Source: a virus. Taken from it: a stretch of 37,240 nucleotides of DNA. The translations under genes and the position numbers were made by a program. The stretch is from the IMG/VR virus record IMGVR_UViG_3300047174_000302, positions 1-37,240 of that record, one strand, 5' to 3'. The notes under the pieces were generated by a model. That model worked only from the letters and a program-made list of their open reading frames with translations, was not told where the DNA came from and ran no database searches. Positions 21,721 through 29,256 of this stretch are shown here, piece by piece (position 1 is the stretch's first letter; each line of letters begins with the position of its first letter).

Positions 21721-22512
21721 ATGGCCGCCACGACTCAACTCCTTGCTTTCCACGGGAAGGAAGCCGTCAAAACAAAGTACCTCAAGCGCGTGCGCAAGCA
21801 CCGTGAGGCCGACCAGCTTGTCCAGGGCTACGGCTACTGGAGCGGCGGCAAAGGGTGCGCCGTCGGCTGCACGCTGCACTCGAGCGACCACGGTGCCTAC
21901 GAGACCGAGCTGGGCATTCCCATCGCCCTGGCCTACGTGGAGGACACTCTTTTTGAGCGGCTGCCGGTGGAGCAGGCGCGCGCGTGGCCGGAGCGTTTTC
22001 TTAATGCGCCCGCGGTCGGGGCCGACCTCACCCTGGTTCCGCACAAGTTCGCGCTCTGGCTGCTGACGGATCCCGACTCGATCTATCCTCAGATCGTAAA
22101 AGACCAGGAGGCGAAGAAGATCATCGCTGACGTGGCCGAGCTCTATCGCCGCTTCATCGCCGGCGACAAACCGAGCGAGGCGGAGTGGGATTCCGTCTGT
22201 CAGGTCGCTCGCGAAGCGAGCGACCGCGCGTGGGCCTCGTACCACGCCGCCCTCGCCCTCGCCCGCGCCCGCGCCCTCGCCCGCGCCCTCGCCCGCGCCC
22301 GCGCCCTCGCCCTCGCCCGCGCCCGCGCCCGCGCCCGCGCCCTCGACCTCGACCGCGCCCTCGACCTCGACCGCGCCCTCGACCTCGACCGCGCCCTCGA
22401 CCTCGACCGCGCCCTCGACCTGCCTATTTTTTTCGCACTAGCGAGCCAAAAACTTCTCCGACTCATGGAGGATGCGCCGGTCCTAAACGCGAAGGAGCCG
22501 GCCAGCGCGTGA
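21721..22512 (+). CDS. Phage/plasmid protein with Ala-Leu-Arg repeat region
   Basis: The 263-residue protein begins with a conserved module (LLAFHGKEAVKTKYLKRVRK, near 7-26, then GYGYWSGGKGCAVGC and HSSDHGAYETELGIPIALAY, near 36-72) known from phage and plasmid accessory proteins of unknown function. Relatives commonly end in an Ala-rich helical repeat. Here that tail is built of coding repeats (ALARAR and ALDLDR, 22249-22422), giving an extended helical or coiled rod of roughly 58 residues, then a hydrophobic end FFALASQKLL. The repeats keep the frame. ATG 21721 has AAAGGGA upstream. The gene sits at the end of the accessory block, just before the head genes. Confidence 0.66.
   Translation: MAATTQLLAFHGKEAVKTKYLKRVRKHREADQLVQGYGYWSGGKGCAVGCTLHSSDHGAYETELGIPIALAYVEDTLFERLPVEQARAWPERFLNAPAVGADLTLVPHKFALWLLTDPDSIYPQIVKDQEAKKIIADVAELYRRFIAGDKPSEAEWDSVCQVAREASDRAWASYHAALALARARALARALARARALALARARARARALDLDRALDLDRALDLDRALDLDRALDLPIFFALASQKLLRLMEDAPVLNAKEPASA
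22249..22422 (+). repeat. Coding minisatellite (6-bp and 18-bp units)
   Basis: From about 22249 to 22338 the DNA is a run of GCCCTC and GCCCGC hexamers (about 15 units). From 22339 to 22410 four perfect copies of an 18-base unit GCCCTCGACCTCGACCGC follow, then a partial fifth to 22422. All lengths are multiples of three, so unit gain or loss keeps the reading frame and only changes rod length. Confidence 0.9.
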
Positions 22513-23042
22513 GTCTCGTGATCCCCATCCGCTTCAATCGCTGGTTCTGGTTCGAGGCCAAGGGCGCGACTCCGCGTCGTGTGGCCGGCGCCAGGCGCCG
22601 GCAGCGTCGTCACAATGAAAAGGTATCGCTGTTTCCCGAGTGGCACGACACGGAGCCGGTGGAAGATCAAATCAAGCGGATCGACGATGCGCACATGGTC
22701 AGCCAGCAGAAGAAACGTGATGAGCTCGCGCTAACCTGGCGAGCGGCGCGGGCCATGTTGCGCGAGATACCCCAGCGGCCCCGCGATCAATTTCTTGGTT
22801 GGTGGCGCAACTGCGGCCGGCCAGGGAACGCGGACGATTTTTTCCGCAACCTCCGCGACTTCGTGGCGGGCAAGCTCAACATCGACCAGATCGTGAGCAA
22901 TCTCCGGTACATCCGGCGGGTCGGATGGGAAAAGGGGGGCTGGCGAAAGGGGGATGGACGTCAGTGGTTCGTGTACGGCGATCCGTTCACCGATGAGCCA
23001 GATCCGCGGACGCTGGACTATATTCGCGAGGGAGCCGACTGA
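22509..23042 (+). CDS. Hypothetical protein before the head genes
   Basis: The 177-residue protein is not recognised. The N-terminal 40 residues are Arg-rich (FRWxWFEAK-like start, then basic). The middle is helical (IKRIDDAHMVSQQKKRDELA) and the C-terminus Trp/Gly-rich (VGWEKGGWRKGDGRQWFVYG). GTG 22509 overlaps the repeat-gene stop. It overlaps the gpF-like gene by one base (TGATG), so it is coupled to head morphogenesis. It could be a scaffold helper or an unrelated end gene of the early operon. Confidence 0.55.
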   Translation: MSLVIPIRFNRWFWFEAKGATPRRVAGARRRQRRHNEKVSLFPEWHDTEPVEDQIKRIDDAHMVSQQKKRDELALTWRAARAMLREIPQRPRDQFLGWWRNCGRPGNADDFFRNLRDFVAGKLNIDQIVSNLRYIRRVGWEKGGWRKGDGRQWFVYGDPFTDEPDPRTLDYIREGAD

Positions 23043-24640
23043 TGGACTTCCTCTTCGCCCCGGCGCCGCACCAGGAGGCGGCTGACTTCATCGCCAGCAA
23101 GCCGGTGGTGGCCCGCGACGTCTTCGACGGCCTGCTGCCGGATCTCCGTGCGCGCGCCTTCACTATCACGGGCCTCGAGGGCCAGGCGAACGTCGCGCAG
23201 GCCATCCGCGACCGCATCGCGGAGCTCCCCGCCGGCGCGTTGTGGGACGACGTGAAGCAGGACGTCGCCGCGGACATCTCGCCCTTCCTCGTCGATCCGC
23301 ACGAGACCGACCCGGAGAAGCACGACGCGCAGATCGCCGCCGCCAACCGCCGCGCGGAGCTCCTCCTGCGCACGCACGGCTTCCAGGCCTACCAGGCCGC
23401 GCAGTTCGGCGTCATGGATCGCCAGCGCGACGTCCTGCCCTTCTGGCAATACCTCACCATGGAGGACGCCCGCGTGCGCCCGACGCACGCCGCGCTGGAC
23501 AAGATCGTGCTGCCCGCCGACTCGCCCTTCTGGGCCAACCACTTTCCGCCCTGGGATTTTGGGTGCCGCTGCCAGGCCGTGCCCATCAGCCAGGACGAGC
23601 GCGACGACCTCGCCCAGGCGGACCAGAAGCGCCCGACGGACGACCGCCTCGTCTTCGAGGGCCCGCGCGCCCAGCACCTGGTCGACGGCACGCTCGTCCG
23701 CAACGGCCGCACCTTCGACGTCCGCGCGCCACAACAGAAGTCCGACACCGGTTTTGGCTGGGATCCGCGCACGCTGCGCATGCCGCTCGATGAGCTGGAG
23801 GCGCGCTACGACAAACAGACCTGGGCCGAGTTCAAGGCCTGGGCGGAGCGCACGCCCCTGGGCGCCCACCAGCCGACCGTGTGGTCCTGGCTCGGTGGAA
23901 AGCCGGCCGCTGGCGCAACCCCGCCGCCGCACGGCCAGCCAGCCGCGCCGGCGCCGGCACCGCGTCCCACCCTCGATCAGTTCATCGCCGCTCACACCGC
24001 GCAGCCGGGGCAGATGACTCCCGCCGAGGCAACCAATCTCGTCGCCGCGCTCAAGCAGAACCACGGCGTCACGGTGCAGGACAAGGTCGCCAGCATCGGC
24101 GTGCCGCGCGGCTACTCCGCCCAGTGGAAGACGACCGTTTCCGCTGTCGTGCAGGAGTTCATCGATGTCGTGCCCAAGCCGCTCCTCGACACGTTGCCGG
24201 CCATCACCATCCGCGTGCGGAGAAAACTGCCCGGCGCGCTGGGCGAGTACGACCCAGGTAAGGATGTTCTCTCCCTCAACGGCCCCGCGCTGAGCAACGA
24301 CACGGCCGAGTTCCGCCGCGTCCTCTTTCATGAACTCGCGCATTGGCTTCACCTGCGCGGACCGAAGGCCTACCGGGACGCCATCCTGGCGCACTTCAAC
24401 GCGCGCACGGCCGGCGAGTCCGCCGCCACGCTGCCCGGGTACAACTCCTCCACCCGCGGCAAGAAGGACCAGTGGTTCCACGTCTACATGGGGCGCCAGT
24501 ATCCCGGCATCGTCGACGGCAGCGAAATCCCGACGAAGGTCTTTGAATTGCTGACTGAACCTTTTAAGTTGTCCACGTATTGGAACATCCCGCTCCACCG
24601 CGAGACGATCAAGGCGGCGCTGGCCGTCCTCTTTTTATGA
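23042..24640 (+). CDS. Mu gpF-like minor head protein fused to a zinc metallopeptidase domain
   Basis: This 532-residue protein joins two domains. The first 290 residues are a Mu gpF/SPP1 gp7-type head morphogenesis protein. It includes the family motif PFWQYLTMEDARVRPTHAAL and PWDFGCRCQAVPIS, near residues 140-185. A Pro/Ala-rich linker (about 295-320) follows. The C-terminal half has VLFHELAHWLHL with the zinc motif HELAHW at residues 430-435 (His430, Glu431, His434); a later EIPTKVFELLTEP offers a possible third ligand (Glu). Members of the gpF family often carry extra C-terminal enzymatic or toxin domains; here it may be a peptidase carried in the virion and possibly injected. In Mu gpF follows gp29; here gp29 is far away on the other strand. 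Confidence 0.82.
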   Translation: MDFLFAPAPHQEAADFIASKPVVARDVFDGLLPDLRARAFTITGLEGQANVAQAIRDRIAELPAGALWDDVKQDVAADISPFLVDPHETDPEKHDAQIAAANRRAELLLRTHGFQAYQAAQFGVMDRQRDVLPFWQYLTMEDARVRPTHAALDKIVLPADSPFWANHFPPWDFGCRCQAVPISQDERDDLAQADQKRPTDDRLVFEGPRAQHLVDGTLVRNGRTFDVRAPQQKSDTGFGWDPRTLRMPLDELEARYDKQTWAEFKAWAERTPLGAHQPTVWSWLGGKPAAGATPPPHGQPAAPAPAPRPTLDQFIAAHTAQPGQMTPAEATNLVAALKQNHGVTVQDKVASIGVPRGYSAQWKTTVSAVVQEFIDVVPKPLLDTLPAITIRVRRKLPGALGEYDPGKDVLSLNGPALSNDTAEFRRVLFHELAHWLHLRGPKAYRDAILAHFNARTAGESAATLPGYNSSTRGKKDQWFHVYMGRQYPGIVDGSEIPTKVFELLTEPFKLSTYWNIPLHRETIKAALAVLFL

Positions 24641-24933
24641 ATGCCCCCACCTCACCCCCCGGCGACGTGGACGATCGCGCCACCGTCACGCTGACATGCT
24701 CCGTCGCCTGGCCGGACGGCCGCCGGGTCACAGCCGCCCTGCGCGCCCGCGACGCTGGCCAGACCGTGCCCGTGGTGTGGACCGGCGCGGTCGACCAGCT
24801 CGAGCGGCCGCCCGATCTCGCCGACTCCGCCCTCTTGGCCGTGTACCTGCAGGACCAGGCCGAGCGCAACGGCGGTACCTTCGAACAAAAACAGGACGGC
24901 CTTTGGCCGGCCATGGATGAGGTGAAAATATGA
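24637..24933 (+). CDS. Hypothetical protein next to gpF
   Basis: This 98-residue protein is not recognised. It is acidic and Ala/Pro-rich at its start, then beta (TVTLTCSVAWPDGRRVTAAL) and helical (ALLAVYLQDQAERNGGTF). ATG 24637 overlaps the gpF stop as ATGA and its stop overlaps the next ATG. It may be an immunity or chaperone partner for the upstream metallopeptidase domain; position alone suggests this. Confidence 0.55.
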   Translation: MNAPTSPPGDVDDRATVTLTCSVAWPDGRRVTAALRARDAGQTVPVVWTGAVDQLERPPDLADSALLAVYLQDQAERNGGTFEQKQDGLWPAMDEVKI

Positions 24934-25130
24934 ATGCAGAAAATGGACAGATCATCATTGCCGCCAGGAACGCGGCTAGGATTCTCAACGAAGTAGCTGA
25001 CAAACTTGCGAAGGTGCCTCTACGACCTGCCCACTCCGGTAACATCCTGACTTCAACACTGCAGCTCCAACAGGACGCAGCCAGGTTAACGGAAAATGTC
25101 GAAAAATCTCAGGAAACGTCGCCCGCTTGA
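24930..25130 (+). CDS. Small helical protein
   Basis: A 66-residue protein with a helix IIIAARNAARILNEVADKLA and another in the C-terminal half (LQLQQDAARLTENVEKSQ). Composition is AT-richer than neighbours. It overlaps both neighbours by four bases. Possible small virion or regulatory helix bundle; function unknown. Confidence 0.52.
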   Translation: MNAENGQIIIAARNAARILNEVADKLAKVPLRPAHSGNILTSTLQLQQDAARLTENVEKSQETSPA

Positions 25131-25372
25131 AACCCACCAAATGCCGCGTGCTCGACGAGGCTGGCCAGCACGTCATCGACGGCAACTTCCACTTCGATAA
25201 AAGCGAAGGCTGGTTCTATCCCGACGTCACCGGCCCGCAGGACCTCAAGCTCGCCCGTGCCACCCTGGAAAGTCGCGACGGCCGCCGCTTCGCCATCACC
25301 GATCTTCACCGCTGGCACGCCGGCAACGTTGTTCAGTACGAGTTCAAGATCGCCCACGAAATGATGCCGTAA
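25127..25372 (+). CDS. Small beta-rich protein
   Basis: An 81-residue protein read from TTG 25127, which overlaps the previous stop (TTGA). It includes CRVLDEAGQHVIDGNFHF, FYPDVTGPQDL and VVQYEFKIAHEM. An internal repeat-like hairpin architecture is likely. The weak ribosome site and unusual start reduce confidence. Function unknown. Confidence 0.48.
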   Translation: MKPTKCRVLDEAGQHVIDGNFHFDKSEGWFYPDVTGPQDLKLARATLESRDGRRFAITDLHRWHAGNVVQYEFKIAHEMMP

Positions 25373-25411
25373 TTTGGTTCAATTTGGAAATTCCGTGAGG
25401 CCTCCCTCCAC

Positions 25412-25858
25412 ATGAGCATCGCCTACCGCAACGGCATCTCCCCCGAGCTCGCGCGCCGTGCTCGGGCTGTCGCGGACCGCCGGCCCATCCTCGAGGCCAT
25501 GGGCGCCGTGTTCGTTTCCCTGACCAAGCGCGCGTTCAGCGACGCCACGCTGCGGCCCACCCCCTGGGCGCCCAACGCGCCCTCCACGCTGCGGCGCAAG
25601 AAGGGCACACTCCTGCGCGAGAGCGGCGCACTTTACCAATCCATCGCCATCACCCAGCTCACCAACGATGCCGTCACCGTCAGCAGCGATCGCCCCTACG
25701 CCGCCATCCAGCAGCTCGGCGGCCAGGCCGGCCGCGGACGCCAGGTGACCATTCCGCCGCGCCCGTTCTTCCCTGTGCTCAACGGCCAGCTCACGCCCGA
25801 GGCCCGGCGCCGCATCGACAACGTCGCCAAGCTCAAGATCGAGTCGCTGACCAAGTAG
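25412..25858 (+). CDS. Mu gpG-like virion morphogenesis protein
   Basis: The 148-residue protein matches the phage virion morphogenesis family (PF05069, Mu gpG), thought to act in tail/neck completion. Recognisable parts are FVSLTKRAFSDATLRPTPWA, then LRRKKGTLLRESGALYQSI, then PYAAIQQLGG and IPPRPFFPVL. It precedes the gpI-like genes as in Mu (F-G-I). Its last 137 bases (from 25722) are the start of a roughly 720-base unit that is repeated downstream. Confidence 0.82.
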   Translation: MSIAYRNGISPELARRARAVADRRPILEAMGAVFVSLTKRAFSDATLRPTPWAPNAPSTLRRKKGTLLRESGALYQSIAITQLTNDAVTVSSDRPYAAIQQLGGQAGRGRQVTIPPRPFFPVLNGQLTPEARRRIDNVAKLKIESLTK

Positions 25859-25998
25859 TTTTCCTTTCTTCAATTTGGTCCATTGGGTCATTCCGTAACT
25901 TGCCTTCTTCGGCAGCAAGTCCGGTCCGCTGCGCGCGACCGCTGAGAACCGGTCTCACCGTTTCGCGACGGCATTCACTTTCCGCCACCTTCGCCGGA

Positions 25999-26439
25999 GT
26001 GCCCACCGCCGACTCGATCAACGGACGCCCTCTTTCCTTCGTCATCAGCAATGGCGCCAAGGATGCCAAGGCGCTGCCGGAACGCCTTAAGCTCCTGCGC
26101 TGGGGTAGGAACGAGACGGTCTGGGGCCCCGTCACCGTCGGGCCTCAAACGCTCAAGCGGCTTTCCGCCAACCAAAAGTCGTTCGGCTTCGATCACATCG
26201 CGCTCGATTACAATCACCAGACCGTCCCCACGTCGCCCAACCACAAGAAGGACTCGGTCGAGGTCGCCGCGTACGGCGTGCCCGAGGTGATCGAGGGCGA
26301 CGGCCTCTACCTCAACATCACGGAGTGGACCGAGTCCGGCCGGCAGCATGCCGGCAGCTACCGCGAGTTTTCCCCCATGGCGCAGCTCAACGACGACGGC
26401 GAAGTCATCTTCCTCCACTCCGTCGCGCTCTGCCGCTAG
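25999..26439 (+). pseudogene. Truncated gpI-like copy (N-terminal protease-like domain only)
   Basis: From the GTG equivalent to that of the full copy (25999), 146 residues run in the same order as gpI: DSINGRPLSFVISNGAKDAK, LSANQKSFGFDHIALDYNHQ and GDGLYLNITEWTESGRQ. It stops at TAG (26437-26439) where the full copy has CAG (27157-27159). It contains the whole domain that precedes the scaffold part, so it might still work as a stand-alone protease domain rather than being dead; an open frame upstream to 25900 also exists. Called pseudogene because of the duplication and the created stop. Confidence 0.6.
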
Positions 26440-26442
26440 GGC

Positions 26443-26579
26443 GCCAGGCCGGCCGCGGACGCCAGGTGACCATTCCGCCGCGCCCGTTCTTCCCCATCCT
26501 CAACGGCCAGCTCACGCCCGAGGCCCGGCGTCGCATCGACAACGTCGCCAAGCTCAAGATCGAGTCGCTGACCAAGTAA
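26443..26579 (+). pseudogene. Start-less 3' fragment of the gpG-like gene
   Basis: This stretch repeats the last 45 codons of gpG (QVTIPPRPFFPILNGQLTPE and on to ESLTK, then TAA) but lacks any start, being created by the tandem duplication. Three differences (VL to IL and silent changes) show it is not a recent copy. It should not make protein unless by read-through. Confidence 0.75.
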
Positions 26580-26718
26580 TTCCCTTCCGTCAATTTGGTC
26601 CATTTGGTCATTCCGTAACTTGCCTCCTTCGGCGCCAAGTCCGGTCCGCGGCGCGCGACCCCTTTGAACCGGCCTCACCGTTTCGCGCGCCGGTGCGCTT
26701 TCCGCCACCTTCGCGGGA

Positions 26719-27732
26719 GTGCCCACCGCCGACTCGATCAACGGACGCCTCATTTCCTTCGCCATCAGCAATGGCGCCAAGGATGCCAAGGCCCTGCCCG
26801 AACGCCTCAAGCTGCTGAGCTGGGGTAGGAACGAGACGGTCAAGGGCCCCGTCACGGTTGGCCCGCAGACGCTCAAGCAGCTATCGGCCAACCAAAAGTC
26901 GTTCGGCTTCGATCACATCGCGCTCGATTACAATCACCAGACCGTCCCCAGCTCGCCCAACTTCAAGAAGGACCCCGTCGAGGTCGCCGCGTACGGCGTG
27001 CCCGAGGTGATCGAGGGCGACGGCCTCTACCTCAATATCACGGAGTGGACCGAGTCCGGCCGGCAGCACGCCGGCAGCTACCGCGATCTCTCCCCCACGC
27101 CGCAGCTCAACGACGACGGCGAAGTCATCTTCCTCCACTCCGTCGCGCTCTGCCGCCAGGGCGCGGTGGACGGCCTCACTTTCTACAGCGCCAGCTTCCT
27201 CAACCCCGCCTCGCTCCAACCCCACACCGCCATGCCGACCCCCGCCCTCGATCCGAAAACCTCGCTCGTCACGCTCCTCAAGACGCTTGGCGTCACCCTG
27301 CCGGACAACCCGACCGACGCGCAGATCATCGACGCCGCCACCAACTTCAAGCCGAACATGGCCGCCACCGCGACCATGACGCCGGAGCTCAAGAAGTTCG
27401 AAGAGCGCCTCGTCTCGCTCGAGGCCGGCAACCAGAACGCCGCGCGGGCCGCCATCGTCGAGCGCGCCACGTCCGCCGGCAAGGTTATCCCGCTTTCCGT
27501 CGAGGAGATCAACCAGCTCTCGCCCGCCGTGCTCTCCTCCATGGTGGAGAAGCTGCCCGCCACGGTGCCGCTGGATTCCCGCACCAAGCCCGGCGCGACA
27601 CCGGCGGCCTCGGGCAAGGTCACCACGCTCACGGCCGAGCAGCGCGCCATCTGCAAGCGGCTCAACATCACCGAGGAGAAGTACCTCCTCACACTCCAGG
27701 CCGAGCAGCCCGCCAACCTCACCGTCGTTTAA
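26719..27732 (+). CDS. Mu gpI-like head protease/scaffold
   Basis: The 337-residue protein is like Mu gpI (PF10123), a protease with a C-terminal scaffold part used during prohead assembly. The N-terminal domain has LSANQKSFGFDHIALDYNHQ, then VAAYGVPEVIEGDGLYLNI, and then TFYSASFLNP, near residues 55-165. After a Pro/Ala linker the C-terminal half is helical, charged and Ala-rich (PELKKFEERLVSLEAGN), as a scaffold should be. GTG 26719 is chosen because an in-frame TGA at 26665 closes the frame upstream; ribosome site is poor. In Mu, capsid protease and scaffold can arise from one gene by an internal start. Decoration and capsid genes follow. Confidence 0.82.
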   Translation: MPTADSINGRLISFAISNGAKDAKALPERLKLLSWGRNETVKGPVTVGPQTLKQLSANQKSFGFDHIALDYNHQTVPSSPNFKKDPVEVAAYGVPEVIEGDGLYLNITEWTESGRQHAGSYRDLSPTPQLNDDGEVIFLHSVALCRQGAVDGLTFYSASFLNPASLQPHTAMPTPALDPKTSLVTLLKTLGVTLPDNPTDAQIIDAATNFKPNMAATATMTPELKKFEERLVSLEAGNQNAARAAIVERATSAGKVIPLSVEEINQLSPAVLSSMVEKLPATVPLDSRTKPGATPAASGKVTTLTAEQRAICKRLNITEEKYLLTLQAEQPANLTVV

Positions 27733-27778
27733 CTCCCCCGCCTCGCCACCAACCAACCCCACCGCCGCTTAACTACCT

Positions 27779-28207
27779 ATGTCCGCCGCTACCGCCTCCA
27801 TCGATGTGCCCGAGAAGTTGGGCGATTACGTCTACCTGCCGCTCGCGGCCAATGCCATCCTCTACTCCGGCGTCCTCGCCGCCGTCGATGCCAGCGGCAA
27901 CCTGAACCCGGCCAGCGACACCGCGGGCCTCGCGGTCATCGGCCGCTTTGAGGGGCCCGACACCAGCAACACTGGCGGCGCGGCCGGCGCGATGTCCGGC
28001 CGGGTCAAGCGCGGCATCTTCGGTTACCAGAACGCGGCGGGCGGCAACGCGCTCACCGCCGCCAGCATCGGCCAGGCCCTCGCCTACGTCTACGACGACC
28101 AGACGGTCGGCATCGCCGGCGGCACGGCCCACACGATCATCGCCGGCGTAGTCGTCGACATCTCCGACGGTTACGTCTGGGTCGATACCCGCCGCAAAGC
28201 TCTTTAA
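27779..28207 (+). CDS. Head decoration protein candidate
   Basis: The 142-residue beta-rich protein (VYLPLAANAILYSGVLAAVD; GLAVIGRFEGPD; IIAGVVVDISDGYVWVDTR) resembles the small capsid-stabilising proteins (HK97 family decoration, or DUF2190-like) that lie between the protease and the major capsid gene in many Mu-like phages. Its place, size and Gly/Val/Ala composition support this. ATG 27779 follows a 46-base gap. Confidence 0.68.
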   Translation: MSAATASIDVPEKLGDYVYLPLAANAILYSGVLAAVDASGNLNPASDTAGLAVIGRFEGPDTSNTGGAAGAMSGRVKRGIFGYQNAAGGNALTAASIGQALAYVYDDQTVGIAGGTAHTIIAGVVVDISDGYVWVDTRRKAL

Positions 28208-28245
28208 CCCGCCTCCCACTCCCACACCTCACCTACCTCCCCGCC

Positions 28246-29256
28246 ATGCAAATCAACGACGGCAATCTCCGCGATCTTTACCGCGGCTACCGCACCCTCT
28301 TCGACGAGGCGCTCCAGGGCGCCACGCCGGTCTCCGACCCGCTGGTCATGACCGTGCCCTCCACCAACAACGAGGAGAAGTACGTCTGGCTCGGCGCCGT
28401 GCCCGGCATGCGCAAGCTGCTCAACGAAATCGAAATTCGCAACCTGAGCGCGTCCAACTTCACGGTCGCCAACGCGGAGTTTGAGGACACCGTCGCCGTT
28501 CGCCAGGTGGACATCGAGAACGACAACTACGGGATCTACAACCCCTTCTTCTCCGCCATGGGCATGGCCGCGCGGTTTGACCAGGACGTGCGCGTCATCC
28601 CGCTGCTTCTCGGCGGTTTCAGCGCCACCAGCACGGTGGACAGCCAGGGCACGCTCAGCGGCAACGACTACACCGGCTCGCCTTACTTCTCCGCCGGCAA
28701 GATCCGCACCCCGGGCGATCCGGGTTTCTCCAACGTCCTGGTGGCCGGTGGCAACATCACGGCCAACGCCCCGCTCAACATCTACAGCTACCGCGCTGCG
28801 CGCGCCAACCTCATGTCGCGCGTCAACGCCCAGGGCCGGCCGATGAACCTCGGCCGCAAGCTCCAGCTCGTCGTGGGCGCGGGGCTCGAGCCCACCGCGC
28901 GCCAGATCCTGGTGGCCGACACGGTCATCCAGGCCAACACCGGCAACACCTCGGTCGCCGCCGTCACCAACGTGGACAAGGGCACGGCCCAGATCATCAC
29001 CAGCCCGCTGATCGACAACAGCTCCACGCCGGATGCGTGGTTCCTGCTCGAGACCGGCCTGGCGGTCAAGCCGCTTGTCTGGCAGGTGAACAAGGCGCCG
29101 GTCCTCACCTCGCTCACCGCGCCGGATTCGGACCACGTGTTCAAGAAGCACGAGTTCCTCTACCAGGCCTATGGCCGCTACGCCGCAGGGTTCCTGCTCT
29201 CCGACCTCGCCTTCGGTTCGAAGGGTACCGGCACGGCCATGACGGCTTACCCGTAA
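28246..29256 (+). CDS. Mu gpT-like major head protein
   Basis: The 336-residue protein matches Mu gpT (PF10124), the major capsid subunit. Typical pieces are LYRGYRTLFDEALQGATPVS at residues 11-30, NNEEKYVWLGAVPGMRKLL near 44-62, and VRQVDIENDNYGIYNPFF near 87-104. A late section KHEFLYQAYGRYAAGF near 304-319 contains the conserved YGRYAAGF. The order protease, decoration, capsid is the Mu order. ATG 28246. It is the best-supported structural gene of the window. Confidence 0.9.
   Translation: MQINDGNLRDLYRGYRTLFDEALQGATPVSDPLVMTVPSTNNEEKYVWLGAVPGMRKLLNEIEIRNLSASNFTVANAEFEDTVAVRQVDIENDNYGIYNPFFSAMGMAARFDQDVRVIPLLLGGFSATSTVDSQGTLSGNDYTGSPYFSAGKIRTPGDPGFSNVLVAGGNITANAPLNIYSYRAARANLMSRVNAQGRPMNLGRKLQLVVGAGLEPTARQILVADTVIQANTGNTSVAAVTNVDKGTAQIITSPLIDNSSTPDAWFLLETGLAVKPLVWQVNKAPVLTSLTAPDSDHVFKKHEFLYQAYGRYAAGFLLSDLAFGSKGTGTAMTAYP

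Follow-up and report, generated by a model that had tools for sequence, protein, structure and literature searches.

The stretch of DNA analyzed here (the window, 37,240 nt of an IMG/VR record) carries part of the head operon of a Mu-like phage, in which two neighboring genes are each present as one intact copy and one piece (Table 1). The intact upstream gene resembles Mu G and matches PF05069 (62.5 bits, E 5e-17) and phrog_26 (E 2e-20) in profile searches. The intact downstream gene resembles the protease/scaffold gene I of Mu; its product scores 92.2 bits against PF10123 (E 6e-26), above the curated cut-off of 25.2 over both the protease and the scaffold parts, and matches the head maturation protease family phrog_328 over residues 22-329 (E 3e-30). 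It is followed by a gene of the virion structural family phrog_1731 and then by a gene for a Mu gpT-like capsid protein (PF10124). Between the intact genes lie a truncated copy of I, here called gpI', and a fragment of G, here called G'. The PF10123 match of gpI' (35.7 bits against the same cut-off) covers positions 21-121 of the 330 in the profile, which is the protease part only; the frame ends after codon 146 and lacks the C-terminal scaffold part. These matches bear out the names gpG and gpI that a sequence-only reading of the locus had given to the two genes.

Table 1. Coordinates of the genes, gene pieces, and repeat features at the duplicated locus
Feature	Position	Strand	Evidence
Intact Mu G-like gene (phage virion morphogenesis/tail completion), 148 aa	25412..25858	+	PF05069, phrog_26
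Copy 1 of the duplication (G 3' end, 5' non-coding stretch, I codons 1-146)	25722..26442 (alignment end 26442/44)	+	Repeat search, alignment, junction
gpI', truncated I copy, GTG start, 146 codons + TAG	25999..26439	+	PF10123, alignment
Codons 25-56 of gpI', block with 11 of 13 synonymous codon differences, probable conversion/recombination tract	26071..26166	+	Synonymous clustering
Junction of the duplication, where the I codon region meets G (overlap of 2 nt, GC)	26443..26444	+	Junction analysis
Copy 2 of the duplication	26443..27164	+	Repeat search, alignment
G' fragment, last ~45 G codons open to TAA, without its own full-length G start	26443..26579	+	Alignment
Intact Mu I-like protease/scaffold gene, 337 aa, GTG start position conserved in relatives	26719..27732	+	PF10123, phrog_328

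Repeat search and local alignment define a 721-bp tandem duplication whose unit comprises the 3' end of the G-like gene, a 5' non-coding stretch, and codons 1 to 146 of the I-like gene. The sequence-only reading had described a unit of about 720 bp, spanning the end of gpG and the first half of gpI, repeated with about 8% divergence, and the alignment confirms this: 675 of 730 aligned bases are identical (7.5% mismatch), with small indels in addition. Mismatches amount to 7 of 141 positions (5%) in the G tail, 12% plus small indels in the 5' non-coding stretch, and 32 of 438 positions (7.3%) in the I part. A 1-bp indel at the G stop codon shifts the offset between the copies, which is 721 bp across the G part and 720 bp across the I part. 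At the junction, the sequence to the left follows the I gene and the sequence to the right follows the G gene, and the two overlap by 2 nt. The window holds no other gene-scale repeat, and a literature search found no report of such a duplication.

Judged by its position in relatives, the start of I is most likely the GTG at 25999 in copy 1 and at 26719 in copy 2; in the two closest relatives first found (L002 and L005) a GTG occupies the same place relative to an INGxLISF motif. A longer frame of copy 1, opening with TTG at 25900, was considered as the true start and rejected: the matching part of copy 2 is interrupted by a TGA, and the positional conservation of the GTG in both relatives disfavors the TTG further. 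Read from the GTG, gpI' comprises exactly 146 codons and closes with a TAG at 26437-26439, as had been noticed from the letters; copy 2 has CAG at this codon. The further claim, that this TAG splits the protease from the scaffold, survives in part. Without the TAG, the copy-1 frame meets a TGA about nine codons on, inside the G piece, so that the truncation is due to the junction and the TAG is rejected as the cause of the split. As a separate observation, the I genes of the window and of relatives L002 to L007 lack both a good ATG and a clear Shine-Dalgarno sequence at the usual spacing, and in most of them GTG is the likely start.

What does stand of that claim is where the cut falls. An AlphaFold model built from eight sequences was poor, and one built from 42 reached a pLDDT of 80.6, with values of about 90 or more over most of residues 30-140. 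Its last core strand spans residues 135-145, confidence is low from about 150, and the core ends near 145-150; the cut of gpI' at residue 146 is, by this model, at the edge of the core and at the border between protease and scaffold. H73, S125, and H140 form a putative catalytic triad, proposed from their invariance only. The truncated copy retains all three together with the modelled core, a point against regarding it as a decaying gene. Fold searches with both AlphaFold models returned no solved (PDB) structure at E 0.001, including any herpesvirus-assemblin-like capsid protease, and a sequence-profile search likewise gave no match to a solved structure. Because no solved structure matched by either route, the protease assignment here follows Pfam and PHROG naming.

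Relatives of the I gene were collected from viral and bacterial contigs, with 2 + 1 + 4 loci from single-sequence queries and 45 from an alignment query, about 44 distinct contigs in total. On every one of these contigs there is just one I gene, whose protease and scaffold share a reading frame; a contig end truncates one of these genes, and in all the others the frame runs to full length. G is likewise single wherever it is recognisable, and among the roughly 44 contigs there is no duplicated or split I gene and no free-standing protease domain. The closest relative of the I protein is 61% identical. None of the viral contigs shares the duplication's DNA word or its junction, or is a near relative by DNA; the phage records gave no match by DNA and none with full gpI, and among phage proteins gpI' had one weak match, at 31%. 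Since every related contig has a single I and no contig has the word or the junction, the duplication appears, as far as the collections searched show, to be private to this lineage.

The divergence between the copies is a mosaic. Purely synonymous codon differences are concentrated in codons 25-56, which hold 11 of the 13; none of 20,000 random placings was as clustered. This block has a synonymous divergence (dS) of 0.61 and a dN/dS of 0.10; the corresponding values are 0.06 and 0.99 for codons 1-24, and 0.08 and 0.54 for codons 57-146. The copies also share identical runs of 56, 59, and 64 nt, three stretches that are too long for evenly scattered differences (P 0.0005). From the synonymous clustering and the long identical runs it follows that the copies share no single clock. 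The block is probably a conversion or recombination tract, and the natural reading of the mosaic is either that conversion or a related phage supplied an older, selected tract or that its flanks were homogenised. The sequence-only reading had taken the divergence to suggest long retention or recombination with a related phage. Its recombination component draws support from this strong clustering; its argument for long retention falls, because divergence so patchily distributed no longer measures retention time.

The same mosaic governs how selection on gpI' is to be read. Over the I part, the pairwise dN is 0.048, dS is 0.176, and dN/dS is 0.27, which at face value suggests constraint and is a point against decay. 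The comparison of dN/dS between the copies had been proposed from the sequence alone as a check on function, and its outcome is divided: the overall ratio seems constrained because most of the synonymous change comes from the one synonymous-rich block, but outside that block the ratio lies between 0.54 and 0.99. Polarisation points the other way. All 13 polarisable amino acid differences (with L002, L005, and L011 as references) fall on copy 1 and none on copy 2, one more being ambiguous, whereas synonymous differences polarised by L002 are divided about 4:3 between copy 1 and copy 2.

An alignment of 42 intact I proteins was used to ask where these changes fall. It has 13 invariant positions, of which gpI' keeps 10, the putative triad included; the exceptions are P86S, D123E, and the absent G148. 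The changed sites of gpI', 11 in this test, have a mean conservation of 0.65 against 0.60 over all sites (P 0.74) and are thus random with respect to conservation. In all 13 control pairs of intact proteins, the changed sites are the more variable ones (mean conservation 0.38-0.52, P at most 0.003), and 11-site samples drawn from these pairs reached the gpI' value in 0.05% of draws. A simulation without selection, starting from copy 2, fits that value (P 0.77); it predicts about 1.4 changes among the 15 most conserved sites, where 2 were observed. The truncated copy is without the site-specific purifying selection seen in working homologues, and its substitution pattern resembles that of a copy no longer under selection. 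The argument that led from divergence to possible function fares badly here, with amino acid changes all on copy 1 and at conserved and variable sites alike, including the family-invariant P86 and D123. The size of the site-conservation test, 11 sites, is a point against decay. That gpI' has no internal stop or net frameshift over 438 nt is another, and about 55% of the no-selection simulations, in which indels were left out, were likewise stop-free. Branch-specific codon maximum likelihood on five sequences did not separate a relaxed from a constrained copy 1 (lnL differences below 1, outgroups saturated).

We consider it probable, at roughly three chances in four, that an illegitimate tandem duplication produced a truncated protease copy that has since been decaying, with patchy recombination, while the intact I gene works. 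Illegitimate joining at a 2-nt microhomology would have duplicated 721 bp of this Mu-like phage's head operon and left an intact G upstream and an intact I downstream, with a 5'-truncated G' and a gpI' lacking its scaffold half as remnants. The intact I gene would supply protease and scaffold, as in Mu, and selection on the amino acid sequence of the redundant gpI' would since have been weak or absent. Exchange with the other copy or a related phage, by recombination or conversion, would have patched part of the divergence. Most likely, gpI' is a leftover rather than a new free enzyme.

The clustered synonymous differences and the three long identical runs would also be expected if unequal recombination between two related co-infecting phages had joined alleles that were already diverged, so that the divergence is older than the duplication. 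Two functional alleles, however, should both have changed at variable sites, whereas the observed split is 13:0 at random sites, and no second related phage with the copy-1 allele was found among the viral contigs; we think this origin unlikely. An assembly or library chimera that joined two strains is the least probable explanation, even though the record is an uncultivated-virus-type contig and 7 to 8% is a possible distance between strains: the junction is unique and overlaps by only 2 nt, unlike the long shared word of a k-mer misjoin, and the one-sided, selection-free change of copy 1 is unlike a second functional strain.

Several properties of gpI' invite a functional interpretation, namely its open frame of 146 codons behind a conserved GTG start, its PF10123 score above the cut-off, the retained H73, S125, and H140, and a cut that falls where the modelled core ends. 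They would fit a free protease domain, uncoupled from its own scaffold tail and acting in trans on the scaffold and head proteins. We nonetheless hold such an enzyme to be quite improbable, given the loss of site-specific constraint, the two changed family-invariant residues, the missing invariant G148, the want of a free-standing protease domain in any relative, and the intact protease/scaffold gene just downstream. It is harder still to credit that gpI' is made and, scaffold-free, either cleaves in trans or partners full-length gpI, with substitutions that are adaptive rather than decay. If gpI' did work as a free protease, it would illustrate how the protease and scaffold parts, which are joined in every complete relative examined, can come apart. 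As it stands, the locus offers a small but clear case of a duplicate decaying among phage head genes. It also carries a caution: where the synonymous changes come mainly from one mosaic block, pairwise divergence and a pairwise dN/dS of 0.27 can mimic retention.

Truncated tandem duplicates that arise by illegitimate recombination are known in phage genomes, and the present case resembles them in its short junction homology, its one intact copy of each gene, and the remnants between. It differs in its mosaic divergence, with the synonymous-rich block at codons 25-56, which indicates that the duplication is not fresh. In Mu-like phages the extra product is a free scaffold made from an internal start (Mu gpZ); the extra frame here would be the reverse, a free protease half generated by duplication. 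The intact copy is alike to Mu gpI/gpZ in matching PF10123 and phrog_328 over both halves, and, as in Mu-like phages, it lies between the G-like and the gpT-like capsid genes. According to the KS10 paper (PMC2628397), the scaffold gene of Mu-like phages sits in frame inside the gene for the protease. In the window, a Mu-like portal gene (PF06074, 5e-65) lies at the left end (1-1608, - strand), apart from the F, G, I, and capsid genes (23042-29256, + strand), a divided head module that resembles the one described for KS10 (PMC2628397).

A motif containing AATTTGG and followed by ATTCCGT occurs at 25371-25400, 25871-25898, and 26591-26618, once ahead of G and once in each copy of the stretch that precedes I, and may be a regulatory element; a wider repeat family was considered and rejected, since within the window the motif is found at these places only. 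Elsewhere, positions 22248-22421, inside an open reading frame at 21721-22512, hold about 29 imperfect hexamers (CGCCCT/CGCCCG, then CGACCT/CGACCG) with a period of 18, which encode an Ala-Leu/Ala-Arg run followed by a Leu-Asp-Arg-Ala run.
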